From: a bacterium
GTDB taxonomy: Bacteria > Thermosulfidibacterota > Thermosulfidibacteria > Thermosulfidibacterales > Thermosulfidibacteraceae
Direction: 5' to 3'
NCBI GenBank assembly: GCA_027033775.1
Contig: JALVKL010000054.1
Coordinates: forward strand, 1 to 41,473
Length of the DNA stretch: 41,473 nucleotides
Shown: piece by piece, positions 27,717 through 38,453 of the stretch
Numbering within the stretch: position 1 is the first letter of the stretch
Layout of the letters: each line of letters starts with the position of its first letter
Program-made: the position numbers and the translations under genes
The notes under the pieces: model-generated
Databases searched by the model: none
The model's input: only the letters and a program-made list of their open reading frames with translations
Told to the model about the DNA's origin: nothing

Positions 27717-29132
27717 ATGATGTTGGTTAGTATTAAGGATATTAATCTCATACTCCCTGAAATAGCCCTTTTGATAACAGGAATAATAGTTGTGCTGGTT
27801 GATGCTTATAATAGAAGAAGGGGAAATTATTTAAATATATTGAGTGCCATAGGTATTGCATTGGCTGCTTATCTCAATTTTAAGCTATACGGAGATCATG
27901 GTAATGCTTTTGGTTCTCTTATTTACAGAGATAAACTGGCATATTTTGGGAATTATCTTTTTATATTCTGTGCCTTTATCACATGCTTTTATGCTAGGGA
28001 TTATCTTGTAAAAGAAGACAGAGATTACGGAGAGTTTTATGCTTTAGTTCTTTTTGCCACATTGTCTATGATGTTCGTTGCTTCCTCTGCTTCTCTTTTA
28101 ATGTTCTTTTTATCATTAGAAGTGGTTTCTATATGCCTTTACGCTCTTTCGGGTTTTATCAGGGAAAGGGCAACGTGTGTTGAATCTGCTTTGAAGTATC
28201 TGATATTAGGGGCTTTTTCCGCTTCCTTTTCTGTTTTAGGTATGGCTATAATCTACTATGTGGTAGGTTCCTTGGATGTTTTCGTTATAGCATCTTCACA
28301 ATTTAATCTATTTTTGGGTGTAGGGCTGATTTTGTTTGCTGTGTCTATATTCTTCAAGCTTTCCGCTGCCCCCTTTCATATTTGGGCTCCTGATGTGTAC
28401 CAAGGGGCTCCTGCTCCAGTTACAGGGTTTATGATGACAGCTGCAAAGGCTGCCATATTTCTGTTTATAGTCAGATTTTTCATGATTTCCTTAGGTGTGA
28501 GTAATGTATGGCTTTATGTTATTATGTTTGTTTCTGTTGTTTCCATGGTGGTGGGGAATTTTTCTGCTATCAGACAGATGGATGTAAAGAGGCTTCTCGC
28601 CTATTCTTCTATAGCTCATGCTGGATATGCTATGGTGGCTATAGCTTCTGGAACCAAATACGGTCAGGTGGCAACCATCTTTTATGCCGTTGCTTATTGT
28701 TTGATGAATCTCGGAGCCTTTGCAGTTATTAGTGTTCTTGCAGGCGAAGGGGAAAAGCATATAAGTTTAGAGGATTTACAGGGTGCTGCTGTTGAGCATC
28801 CAGTATTATCTGCTGCTCTGGCAGTGTTTCTCTTTTCTCTTGCTGGTATGCCTGGAACTATAGGCTTTGTCGGAAAATTTTATGCTTTTGCTGCGGCAAT
28901 TAAAGCTGGTCTTTATGGGCTTGTAGTCTTTGCTCTCATTAATAGCGCCATTGCTGCTTATTATTATTTAAAGGTAATTTATTATATGTATATGAGGGAG
29001 CAAAAGATTTCTTTGAATGCTAAAATGGGAGTGGCTACAGGTATAGCTGTGTTGATACTTGTAGTTGCTGTTATACAGTCTGGACTTCTTCCCGGATACC
29101 TTTTCAATTTTGCCATGATGAGCCTTCCTTGA
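27717..29132 (+). CDS. nuoN: NADH-quinone oxidoreductase subunit N (antiporter-like)
   Basis: The third antiporter-like subunit, 471 residues. Seen: [21 protein letters not shown] (helix 5 glutamate), [39 protein letters not shown] and [21 protein letters not shown]. The start is one of two adjacent ATGs (27717 or 27720) behind GAGGAGAGG. It ends the nuo genes. The next gene follows after 31 nt with no terminator, so the transcript probably continues. Confidence 0.96.
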
Positions 29133-29163: not shown

Positions 29164-31098
29164 ATGGAGTTGTCTCGTCTATTAAGTGAGGGGATAGTTG
29201 TAGATTCTTTAGCGGATCTCAGGAAGTTTCTTAATACCCTTTCTGATGTTTCCGGTGCTTCTGGGATTTTGCTTAATATCGGTGATAGAAGCGTAAAAAG
29301 TGGTGAAGTTAAAAGAAAGACGGCTCCAGACTATTTGTATAAATTTAAAGTGAATGAGACTGATTGCTCATTTATGGTGTATAATCCCAAACTTTCAGCT
29401 GAAGAACTGGACGAGCTCTCTCAGCTGGTGAGTCTTATTGTTTCTAAATATGTGTATTCAGATGAATTGAAGAGGATTAAAAGGAAGCTCTCTCAAACCG
29501 ATAGATTGTGGGAGCCATTCGTTTCGTCAACAAATATTGAGAGGCTCATAAGGCTTTTACCTCAGCATATAGGAGAATTTTTGGGTGTTGAGGCTGTCTC
29601 TTTGACCATAGCATCAGGAAAGGGCACTGATTTAAGAGGATTTTGGAGCAAATCGGAAAGATCAGAGGAGAGGATAGCGAGGAGATTCAAAAGATTATGC
29701 ATTCCTTTAAAGGATTTGATTTCTGGAGCGTCTTTAGGCTACATAGATTTGTATTATAAAGGTGATCATTTTGAAAAGGATCCCCTTGTTAAATTTGTTT
29801 CAGATAAGCTTTCTGCCTGTTTTTCAGTGTTTCTAAGCAGGGAAGAGCTTGAGGAGAAGCTGGAGTATTTTAATTTATTCTTTCACATAGGAAATCTCTT
29901 TAGAAAGACTTCTGAGTTTAGAAAAAGAGTGGAACTTGCCCTATGGGCTTTATGCTATGAGGGTGGCTTTGGATTTAATGAAGCGGCTTATTTTATATAT
30001 GACGAGAAAGATGAACTTTTGAAGGGTTTTATAGCCTTTTCAGGTATGAGATCCGATATTTGTGAGGAGGCTAAGCTTCCATCGGATCAATGCATCTTTT
30101 CAGAAATCAGATCTTGCTTTAAGCCTAAGGAGAGCTTTTGGGAAGCTACACCTTATGAGATTGATAAATCTGATATAGATATTCCCTTTGTTTCCCCACA
30201 TATATACGCTTTACCTTTGGTGATAGAGGACAAGCTTTTAGGCTGTTTTGTAATCGGGGTAGAAGATGTTTTGGATCAGAAGGATACGGAAATGCTTACC
30301 CTTTTTGCTCAAGAAGTGGCTTTAGCCTTTGAGAGTGCTAAACTTCAGGAAGCCTTCAGAAAAATGGTAGCCGAATTGAAAGAGGCGCGGGAAAGTTTCA
30401 CCGAAAGTGAAAAGTTAAAAACTTTGGGGGAATTTTTGGCCAGGGTTGTTCATGACATTAAAAATCCTCTGGTAGCTGTAAGTGGTCTTGCTAAAAGACT
30501 CTATAACAAGCTTCCTGAAGATTATCCTGAGAAAAGTATTCTTAAGATGATAGTGGAAGAGACAAATAGGGCTCTTTCAATCCTTACAGATGTTCTCTCT
30601 TACGTGAGACAGCCCGTATTAAAGAAGGAACTCTTTGATATTAATGAGTTGATAGATGAGATCATTTTCATGGAATCCACTACTTTAAGGGATAAAAAGA
30701 TAGTTTTGTATAAAAACCTTGATAGATCCATTCCTAAAATCAAAGGGGATTCTGCTCAGATAAGGCAGGTTATCCTCAATTTAATAACCAATGCTATACA
30801 GGCTATGAGCAAAGGGGGAACATTAATAATTAAGACATCCTTGGAGGAGCTTGAAGGGAAATCCTATGTGAAAATAGAGATAACAGATACAGGGGGCGGT
30901 ATCCCTCCAGAGATAGTGCCAAACATATTTAATCCCTTTTTCACCACAAAAAGCACAGGTACAGGTTTGGGACTTTCCACCTCAAAAAGAATAGTTGAGC
31001 TTCATGGAGGATTTATAAAGTGCATTAACAACTATCCTGTAGGTGCCACTTTTTTGGTTTATCTTCCGGTAGAGGCGGAGGATGAAAAGAAGTCTTGA
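29164..31098 (+). CDS. Soluble GAF-type sensor histidine kinase
   Basis: A 644-residue cytoplasmic histidine kinase with no membrane helix. Residues 1-~395 appear to be two or three GAF-like sensor folds (for example SGASGILLNIGD; IGEFLGVEAVSLTIASG; GFGFNEAAYFIYDEKDE with ALPLVIEDKLLGCFVIG). A coiled coil (395-420) leads to the dimerisation domain with H430 (ARVVHDIKNPLVAVSGLA), then an intact HATPase domain: N box NLITNAIQAMSKGG, G1 ITDTGGGIPPE, F box IFNPFFTTK, G2 GTGLGLSTSKRIVELHGG. The ATG at 29164 has only a weak ribosome site. It overlaps the next, kinase-like gene by 17 nt and lies 31 nt after nuoN. No response regulator is nearby. The signal sensed is unknown; the context suggests energy or redox state. 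Confidence 0.88.
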   Translation: MELSRLLSEGIVVDSLADLRKFLNTLSDVSGASGILLNIGDRSVKSGEVKRKTAPDYLYKFKVNETDCSFMVYNPKLSAEELDELSQLVSLIVSKYVYSDELKRIKRKLSQTDRLWEPFVSSTNIERLIRLLPQHIGEFLGVEAVSLTIASGKGTDLRGFWSKSERSEERIARRFKRLCIPLKDLISGASLGYIDLYYKGDHFEKDPLVKFVSDKLSACFSVFLSREELEEKLEYFNLFFHIGNLFRKTSEFRKRVELALWALCYEGGFGFNEAAYFIYDEKDELLKGFIAFSGMRSDICEEAKLPSDQCIFSEIRSCFKPKESFWEATPYEIDKSDIDIPFVSPHIYALPLVIEDKLLGCFVIGVEDVLDQKDTEMLTLFAQEVALAFESAKLQEAFRKMVAELKEARESFTESEKLKTLGEFLARVVHDIKNPLVAVSGLAKRLYNKLPEDYPEKSILKMIVEETNRALSILTDVLSYVRQPVLKKELFDINELIDEIIFMESTTLRDKKIVLYKNLDRSIPKIKGDSAQIRQVILNLITNAIQAMSKGGTLIIKTSLEELEGKSYVKIEITDTGGGIPPEIVPNIFNPFFTTKSTGTGLGLSTSKRIVELHGGFIKCINNYPVGATFLVYLPVEAEDEKKS

Positions 31099-32248
31099 GG
31101 CAGAGCTTTTTAGATGCAGACGCCATCTAAAGAAGCTCCTCGAAGCTCAAGAGCTTTATAAAAAAGAGGTAGAGAGGAAGGCTCGTGAGCTTGATCAGGC
31201 TAAAAGGATTCTTCAGCAAACTTTAGACGCCCTTGAGGTGGGGATATTGGTTCTTGATACAGAAATGAGGATAGTTTTTGTAAACAGATCCTTGAAAGAG
31301 TTGTTTAATATATCCGGAGATGTTAGCGGAAAGTTTTGTTGGGAAGCGCTTCATAAACTGGATACACCCTGTGCTGGAGAAAAATGTAGAATTGCTTTGG
31401 AGAAGTCCCAGAGATTAGAGGAAGAGCTGTTGTTTCTGAAGGAGGGGAAAAAGAGGGTTTATCTTGTGAGAACCTATCCTTGGATTTTTGAGGGGAAAAC
31501 TGCTGGCATAATAAGAAGTTTCATAGATATAACAGACAGAAAAATAGCTGAGGAATATGAAATACTTTCTGGAATTTCCATGTATATGGCCCATGTGGTT
31601 AAAAATAGCATAACTCCTATAGGGGGATTTGTAAAAAGATTGGCTAAAGACTGTCAAAGGGAAGAGAATGCCAGAATTTTTGCCTATCTTTTTGAGTCTA
31701 TTTTCAAACTTGAAAGATCAATGTTTGAGTATGAGGCCTATGTGTTTATAAAAAGGAAAATGCCCTATGAGATTTTTGATGTCTCTCTTGTGCTTAAGAA
31801 TTTGAAAAACGAGATTTTGTCAGAGGATTTTATCAAAGAATTCTTTTTAGAGCATATAAGGGATAAATTTAAAATTGAAATGGAATTGCCTGCCAAAAGT
31901 GTACTGATGCTTGGTAACGAGTTGATTTTCACCATAGCCATAAAACATATGATAGCCACTATTATTTCTTACGGTGCGGAGGAACTGGATCTTGATGAGG
32001 TTGTTCTGAAGATTAAAGCTATTTCTAATGATGTATTTATTATAAACTTTAATTTCAATTACGCCTTTCCGAAAGAAGTTGTGGAGTTTATTTTTGAGCC
32101 TTGGAAGGCCAGCAAAGGCAGGGGTTTCGACAAATGGGGATTTGCTATATGTAAAGAAATGGTTGATTACCACAGTGGGAGTATAAAACTTACCCCAGAC
32201 AGATCTTCTTGTGAAATTAAAATCCCTTTGTCCCATTACCATTATTGA
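31082..32248 (+). CDS. PAS protein with degenerate histidine-kinase domain
   Basis: 388 residues, soluble. Order: coiled coil (1-50); PAS domain (about 48-160, [22 protein letters not shown], ending FIDITDRK) that includes a cysteine cluster, [18 protein letters not shown]; a dimerisation-like helix pair with a retained H box (H171 in [14 protein letters not shown]); and an HATPase-like C-terminus. In the latter the N box is lost ([15 protein letters not shown] has no Asn) and no DTGxGI G1 box exists. Remnants remain of the F box ([11 protein letters not shown]) and G2 box ([21 protein letters not shown]). So ATP binding is doubtful while the phosphorylatable histidine survives. It overlaps the upstream intact kinase by 17 nt. 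It may act as a phosphotransfer or regulatory partner of it; that is inference. Confidence 0.8.
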
Positions 32249-36879: not shown

Positions 36880-37399
36880 TTGCCCTGCTCTTTATAAGTT
36901 TAGCCTTTTTAATAAATGCATTCTTATATTTTACATCCAGGTTTTTGTATAAAAAGAGGCTTTTTTCCTCTTTTTCTGAAAGGATACTCCCTAATCCCTC
37001 TTTTCTGGCAAATAGGCTGAAGAAGTGTATAAGATTTGTCTGTAAGGTCTCTTTATCCTTTGTGTTTCTTAAAAAATAGAGGATGAAAGGGAAATATTCT
37101 TTTGCAGATTTATCCTGAAAATATTTTGTGACAATATCTTTTATGAACTCTATGAATTTAGTCTGATATTCATTCATGAATAAATCTAAAAGTTCCCATT
37201 GCCTTATAACAGCAAAATTTCTGGTGAATATGGCACTAAATATATAATATCCCCCCTCAAAGAGAATAAATTTATCTTTTAAGCTGCTACAGAAACCGTT
37301 TAGTTTGCCTTCTTCTAAGCTTAGAATAGTCAATCTTTGTGCCCTTGTAAAAAGGGTTTGCTTATCAAAGACAATGCCATGTATAGGTCTTTCAATCAT
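36869..37399 (-). CDS. Small protein, possibly a divergent RecO
   Basis: 176 residues, no signal peptide or membrane helix. I do not recognise it with certainty. The first ~75 residues resemble the OB-fold of the recombination mediator RecO: a strand (IHGIVFDKQTLF), then RAQRLTILSLEEGKLNGFCSSL, which parallels the RecO pattern of a strand reading ..ilTllT.e.GKl.. followed by a short strand, and FEGGYYIFSAIFTRNFAVIRQWELLDLF. The rest is helical (IDIVTKYF-like segments, FFSLFARKEGLGSIL). RecO is usually ~240 residues with a zinc site in many species; no Cys cluster is present here. It overlaps dut by 11 nt and the upstream kinase by 8 nt, so it is a real, expressed member of the operon. Confidence 0.5.
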   Translation of the reverse strand: MIERPIHGIVFDKQTLFTRAQRLTILSLEEGKLNGFCSSLKDKFILFEGGYYIFSAIFTRNFAVIRQWELLDLFMNEYQTKFIEFIKDIVTKYFQDKSAKEYFPFILYFLRNTKDKETLQTNLIHFFSLFARKEGLGSILSEKEEKSLFLYKNLDVKYKNAFIKKAKLIKSRAIEG

Positions 37400-38453
37400 C
37401 TCGAGGAAGTAGTATTGTAAATTTGGTGTTTCCTGGTTGGCTTTCCACCTTTATAAGTCCATTGTGGGCGTCTATAATTTTGTGAACTATAGCCAATCCC
37501 AGTCCAGTCCCCTTTTTCTTGGTGGTAAAAAATGGATCAAAGATCTTTTCAAGGTATTCCTGTGGTATTCCTGGTCCGGTATCAGAAATTTCCAATTTAA
37601 TATTATCTTTCAGTTTTTCAACTTTTATCTTTATCTTTCCCCTTTCTTTTATCGCCTGGACAGCGTTTATTATTAAATTGAGGATTACCTGCCTTAATAG
37701 CTCTTTATCCGCATTTATTTCCAGTTTTTCTCCCTCTATTTCAATCTCTATCTCTTTTTCTCTCAAAGCATGGTGTGCCAATTCTACCGTCTCTTTTATA
37801 AATTCTATCACTTCAAATTTCTCCTTTTCTACCTGAAAGGGTCTAGCAAATAAAAGCATATTTGATATCAAGTTGTTTATGCTTCTTACCACATTAATTA
37901 TCCCTTCAGCCCACCTCTTTATCTCTTCTTTTTCTGCTTCTCTTTTAATAAGCCCAGCGAACAGCTCTATAGATCCAAGGGGGTTCCTTATTTCATGTGC
38001 TATAGCTGTTGCCATCTCTCCCATAGCAGATAGTCTTTCTACCCTTTTGCTCTTCTCTTCCAATTCCCTTTCTCTGGTTATGTCTCTCAAAACCGTGACC
38101 TTACCAATTTCGTTTTCTTCCTCAATTAAAGGGTATTTTTTTATTAGAATTATTTTGTCTCCCAATTTAGCTTCTCCATCTTCGGGTATCACTTCACTCA
38201 GTTTTTTTCCTTCAATATTGCCAAGTATATTTTTTGCCGCTTTGTTTGCCATGATGATGGTCTCTTCGTTATCGGATGCTATTACACCATCAGATATACT
38301 CTCTAAAATAGAGGATAAAAGCCTTTTGTGAGAGGCAAGCTCCTCTCCAAGTCTTCTTACCTCTTCTTTTAAGGTGTTATAGGCCTTACTCAGTTCTTCT
38401 GTGGCTTCAATAAAGTTCTTTAAAGTCTTTTTCAGTACTTCTACTTCACTCAA
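37392..38453 (-). CDS. Soluble PAS sensor histidine kinase (NtrB/AtoS-like)
   Basis: 353 residues, cytoplasmic. N-terminal coiled coil (1-45), PAS domain (about 45-130: [33 protein letters not shown]), dimerisation domain with phospho-acceptor H153 ([20 protein letters not shown]), and a complete HATPase domain: [51 protein letters not shown] and [13 protein letters not shown]. The architecture is that of NtrB-type kinases that usually partner sigma-54 activators, but no response regulator is in the window. The start is TTG 38453 with AGAGG upstream, overlapping the TPR gene by 8 nt. Grouping with pilD and an exported TPR protein suggests control of pili or envelope functions (inference). Confidence 0.9.

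Follow-up and report, generated by a model that had tools for sequence, protein, structure and literature searches.

The gene analysed here encodes a pseudo-histidine kinase and follows the gene of an intact histidine kinase. Both lie in the window, the whole stretch of 41,473 nucleotides that was analysed, in the order nuoL-nuoM-nuoN, GAF kinase, pseudo-kinase. The genes of the locus are:

27717-29132, forward strand: nuoN, the upstream neighbour
29164-31098, forward strand: GAF histidine kinase of 644 aa, intact, with the H box HDIKN and with the N, G1, F and G2 boxes all complete
31082-32248, forward strand: pseudo-histidine kinase of 388 aa, an open ORF

The ORF coordinates confirmed the 17 nt overlap between the GAF kinase gene and the pseudo-kinase gene that had been reported in the original prediction. 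The pair had also been placed directly after nuoN. It is indeed conserved at this position, but the gene that adjoins nuoN, 31 nt behind its end at 29132, is the kinase and not the pseudo-kinase. On the 3′ side of the pseudo-kinase gene, an ORF reads as ribose-phosphate pyrophosphokinase (prs). The G+C content of the pseudo-kinase gene (0.37) is like that of the neighbouring genes, and promoter and terminator scans gave no matches above chance. Elsewhere in the window, an intact NtrB/AtoS-like kinase is encoded on the reverse strand (37392-38453), and no response regulator accompanies it in the window. In the window's genome, G000, a carB-like gene adjoins the gene of an orphan NtrC-like activator of 456 aa (G000:C236, L115).

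The pseudo-kinase is composed of four parts, and its PAS domain contains three cysteines:

residues 2-50: N-terminal helix
residues 48-154: PAS domain
residues 151-225: DHp hairpin
residues 230-384: rebuilt CA-like domain
31337-31387, forward strand: PAS cysteines C86, C97 and C102 (C-x10-C-x4-C)

PAS_4 was detected with Pfam at 2.4e-11. The profile check of the kinase-like half found HisKA (12.5 bits, gathering cut-off 26.9) and HATPase_c (18.0 bits, cut-off 26.4) both below threshold, and the neighbouring kinase 29164-31098 cleared both (38.9 and 92.9 bits, respectively). Annotation can therefore easily mistake such genes for plain PAS proteins or ordinary kinases, and none of the named families in Pfam and NCBIfam covers this one. 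In profile comparison, the C-terminal half aligned with the DHp-CA region of the neighbouring kinase (probability 96%, E 1.6e-9), and the PDB matches included ThkA, ZraS and KinB, among others, which upholds the domain assignment of the original prediction. An AlphaFold2 model built from 19 sequences (mean pLDDT 82.9) reproduced the order helix-PAS-DHp-CA. Full sensor kinases are the solved structures closest to this model; DivL and NifL were also among the Foldseek matches listed. By sequence and fold, the nearest relatives are thus HisKA kinases of the AtoS/ZraS/NtrB type, such as ThkA (3a0r) and ZraS (9jfj). These are intact and have both H-E/D and a complete ATP site; the pseudo-kinase has neither.

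In total, 34 homologues were found across two phyla, and the members examined are rebuilt alike. The sample of the window's phylum comprised nine genomes. Four of them, all from another family, have a full-length homologue, and one from a third family has a contig-truncated copy. In the species-level genome collection, a search with the single sequence returned no relatives and an alignment-based search found five. The relatives' named records are metagenome assemblies labelled Aquificota, Thermodesulfobacteriota or 'bacterium'. All four genomes of the other family have the order nuoN, intact kinase, pseudo-kinase with overlapping genes, and they carry a convergent murJ-like gene on the 3′ side where the window has prs. 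Conservation of the pair beside nuo was thereby borne out, also by a contig-truncated copy in the same genus (G001): behind nuoN the kinase gene begins, and there the contig ends. No nuoN match was obtained in G008, which is 73% complete.

Originally, the pair had been suggested to be a two-part respiratory sensor, in which the pseudo-kinase could be phosphorylated in trans by, or heterodimerise with, the kinase 29164-31098. In five genomes of the window's phylum the pair lies behind nuoN; from this and the overlap of the genes, the two proteins are probably co-translated. In addition, C86, C97 and C102 are present in every full-length member of this phylum, though missing from the members of the second phylum, and these cysteines could be metal ligands or a redox sensor, which would fit the nuo position. 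The proposed link to the respiratory state comes from gene position and is not supported: G002, from the same family as the window, has nuoN without a kinase/pseudo-kinase pair, and tonB- and lrgA-like genes follow instead.

The second phylum was first reached in a profile search, which hit three genomes of an unrelated family. The pseudo-kinase is present in 28 of its 51 genomes (E 1e-50 to 1e-92), and the locus was read in 27 of the 28. Most of the proteins in this phylum are about 470-500 aa long, with an unassigned N-terminal part followed by PAS, DHp and CA-like domains. In the loci read, no histidine kinase adjoins the pseudo-kinase gene, which argues against an obligate heterodimer with a kinase. 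Lone relatives with complete boxes were not found; the lone relatives that exist are incomplete in the same way as the window's protein. In one family the gene lies directly 3′ of an ACT-domain gene, apparently glnD, and in other families it precedes argB (loci L080-L082 and L119-L130). From these neighbours, a tie of the second-phylum protein to nitrogen status is possible.

Of about 330 additional genomes, sampled from across the domain, none contained a family member. Weaker genome matches were also considered as a wider family, but all 18 of those inspected (E above 1e-22) turned out to be intact H-E kinases. The family thus has a sharp edge, as far as a two-step search with one genome per sampled lineage can show.

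To trace losses and newly fixed residues, 30 family members were compared with 48 intact kinases; as the latter were selected by their motifs, their values of 100% carry little meaning. The relevant positions in the window are:

31592-31594, forward strand: H171, phospho-acceptor His in the H box MAHVVKN, invariant (19/19 aligned members; 30/30 in the comparison)
31595-31597, forward strand: V172 at H+1, the position that is acidic in kinases for autophosphorylation (sequence comparison and PMC3510030)
31604-31606, forward strand: N175 at H+4, the HisKA phosphatase position (PMC3510030), invariant (30/30)
32099-32104, forward strand: P340-W341, signature at the F-box position, where kinases mostly have PF, invariant in the family
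32126-32137, forward strand: F349-x-x-W352, signature that replaces the G2 box GxGL, invariant in the family

The retention of H171 in the H box, as originally predicted, was thus confirmed in every member examined. The absence of the N-box asparagine and of G1 was likewise upheld, both against the intact partner, compared with which the pseudo-kinase has no N-box Asn pair, no DTGxG (G1) and no GxGLG (G2), and across the members examined, which are missing both N-box asparagines and the G1 Asp. The supposed remnants of the F and G2 boxes have to be described differently. The canonical boxes are gone, and other residues are fixed in their place: the second F-box Phe is Trp and GxGL is F-x-[HYK]-W in 30 of 30 members. 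From this loss of motifs, the pseudo-kinase should not bind ATP normally, which agrees with the earlier expectation.

Changes were also found next to the His. The residue at H+1, normally E or D and overlooked in the original prediction, is V, T or N in the family (E/D in 0 of 30 members), and the Pro at H+5 of the intact kinases is replaced by Ala or Ser. A scan in which the acid was no requirement found E or D at H+1 in every other HisKA box of the loci that it covered. Work on CrdS and three other HisKA kinases has shown that kinase activity depends on the acid at H+1, whereas phosphatase activity does not, and that Thr or Asn at H+4 is required for phosphatase activity and dispensable for the kinase reaction (PMC3510030). 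Judged by these motifs, the family has lost the kinase half of H-E/D-x-x-T/N and retained the phosphatase half, besides having lost the ATP site. Since the acid is absent in every member examined, the protein is unlikely to phosphorylate itself, even if it borrowed a CA domain. The neighbour's CA domain is likewise unlikely to phosphorylate it in trans, because the acid at H+1 belongs to the accepting helix. Moreover, only 14 of 63 aligned residues are identical between the DHp domains of the pseudo-kinase and the neighbouring kinase. Together with the members that stand alone in the second phylum and with G002, which lacks the nuo link, these data do not support trans phosphorylation or heterodimerisation as the defining function, and we regard this as a weaker, rather improbable explanation among those still alive.

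A decaying duplicate of the neighbouring kinase would also adjoin an intact kinase and miss catalytic motifs. In the CA-like domain, dN was about 0.015-0.19 against a dS of about 0.6-1.8 for the pairs with usable dS, some dS values being saturated. For all pairs tested, from either phylum, dN/dS was low in the DHp part as well as in the CA-like part; examples are L124/L125 (dN 0.018, dS 0.95) and G005/G006 (dN 0.15, dS 1.94). In the tree, a branch with support of 100/100 groups all pseudo-kinases, those of the window's and of the second phylum, apart from the paired kinase. Long branches may inflate this grouping, with which the shared W and F positions agree. The tree, the purifying selection and the same derived residues throughout the family rule out a decayed copy of the neighbouring kinase; conservation in two phyla refutes decay, which we consider highly improbable. 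Purifying selection on a domain whose ATP-site residues were swapped for other fixed ones indicates that the CA-like domain has a job other than ATP binding. The pseudo-kinase family is real, conserved and non-decaying, a variant within the known kind of pseudo-histidine kinases.

Known proteins of similar build offer precedents. Spo0B and ChpT are dimeric DHp phosphotransferases with a conserved His and a CA-like fold in which the ATP site does not work; crystals of ChpT had no ATP bound, and ChpT passes phosphate to regulators (PMC3433190). By its alignment and model, the pseudo-kinase has such a hairpin and such a fold. In contrast to Spo0B and ChpT, it has a helix and a PAS domain before the DHp hairpin and its own PW...F..W signature, and its phosphotransfer is putative. 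Neither Spo0B nor ChpT was among the sequence matches or the best 50 fold matches.

A Spo0B/ChpT-like role requires a receiver that gives the phosphate. The candidate followed up is a conserved stand-alone, single-domain protein of 122 aa (G000:C146:8259-8624), the gene of which adjoins another GAF kinase gene; in the window's phylum the GAF kinase gene lies 5′ of it. This receiver is present in G000, G001 and G003-G007 and was not found in G002 or G008; six genomes of the window's phylum have both pseudo-kinase and receiver, and G002 has neither. Of the 28 second-phylum genomes that encode the pseudo-kinase, 27 have a receiver homologue (E 1e-29 or better, 47-55% identity), as against 1 of the 23 that do not; this makes 27 genomes with both, 22 with neither and one discordant genome of each kind. 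The sole genome with the pseudo-kinase and without the receiver is 57% complete. The co-occurrence gives a Fisher p of 3e-12, which overstates the association: the genomes are not independent, and one clade may comprise all positive families of the second phylum. Shared ancestry could thus be an alternative cause. In loci read from both phyla, the receiver gene adjoins a nucleotidyltransferase gene, indicating that it is the same gene in both. This neighbourhood of the receiver, which has an AYS[SA]YQDD motif, and the nucleotidyltransferase is conserved in the two phyla (L172, L173, L174 and L182-L189). We take the receiver as a promising lead to the partner of the pseudo-kinase rather than as a proven one.

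Our preferred, still tentative, reading is that this conserved pseudo-histidine kinase uses its DHp domain on a phosphorylated receiver without ATP, likeliest by Spo0B/ChpT-like phosphotransfer. Phosphotransfer is ranked first because H171 is invariant and the stand-alone receiver co-occurs. In such a relay, the 122-aa receiver would be charged, probably by the adjoining GAF kinase, its phosphate would move to H171 and from there to a second regulator, and the PAS and rebuilt CA-like domains would control docking. Here we infer the reaction, the partner, the direction and the final regulator; no final response regulator for the relay was identified. A precedent is PhyT of Sphingomonas, in which a conserved His moves phosphate from the stand-alone receiver SdrG to the regulator PhyR (PMC5898713). 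PhyT is membrane-bound, in contrast to the pseudo-kinase with its PAS sensor and HisKA-type H box.

The invariant N175 might speak against phosphotransfer, as it fits a phosphatase at least as well. A dedicated phosphatase ranks close behind: the DHp domain would dock either the stand-alone receiver or the neighbouring kinase's regulator in its phosphorylated form, and N175 and a water positioned by H171 would hydrolyse the phospho-aspartate, dividing kinase and phosphatase over two proteins with different sensors. With H-x-x-x-N and no acid, the family keeps that half of the motif on which phosphatase and not kinase activity depends (PMC3510030), and the His also assists the HisKA phosphatase reaction (PMC7005713). 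However, the paired intact kinase has its own Asn at H+4 and should already be bifunctional, and nucleotide in the CA domain normally stimulates the HisKA phosphatase (PMC7005713), an effect presumably lost in the pseudo-kinase.

The rebuilt CA-like domain, under selection and with fixed Trp and Phe, would also suit a sensor of a phospho-receiver or a kinase-modulating scaffold without phosphate chemistry. The precedent is DivL, the Caulobacter pseudo-histidine kinase that acts in this way for DivK~P (PMC4211667). DivL shares PAS domains, the histidine kinase fold and the lack of kinase activity with our protein, and its structure 4q20 is among the Foldseek matches listed. Its pattern is the opposite, however: the His of DivL is a Tyr and N, G1, F and G2 are kept (PMC4211667). 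As a mere scaffold would need neither H171 nor N175, which are invariant in two phyla, we consider this option unlikely.

Returning to phosphotransfer, we propose, with somewhat more reserve than for the reaction itself, a hitherto unrecognised two-phylum family of PAS-gated, ATP-independent histidine phosphotransferases. They would act in a phosphorelay with one conserved receiver, and the ATP domain, rebuilt around fixed Trp and Phe, would serve for regulation or receiver binding. In one phylum, the gene is joined to an overlapping kinase gene behind nuoN. In the part of the pseudo-histidine kinase literature covered (DivL, ChpT, RcsD and plant ethylene receptors), no description of the PW...F..W signature was found. 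Few pseudo-histidine kinases have been studied so far, and this family, old and sharply apart from real kinases in the genomes sampled, is a natural test of DHp function without ATP, with a named receiver as candidate partner.

The opposite type of degeneration was observed in the same genome (L118, G000:C148:8500-12000), where a kinase-like protein of 378 aa has N, G1 and G2 and is missing the H-box His (VMEPEISN). This odd kinase with an intact CA domain was considered as a trans donor and rejected; its relatives in G004-G007 were detected as HisKA domains, and the loss of the His looks local to G000. The protein adjoins an NtrC-like activator, the receiver of which has Ala at the expected phospho-Asp (FTARYLPDG), and the two form a second degenerate pair.
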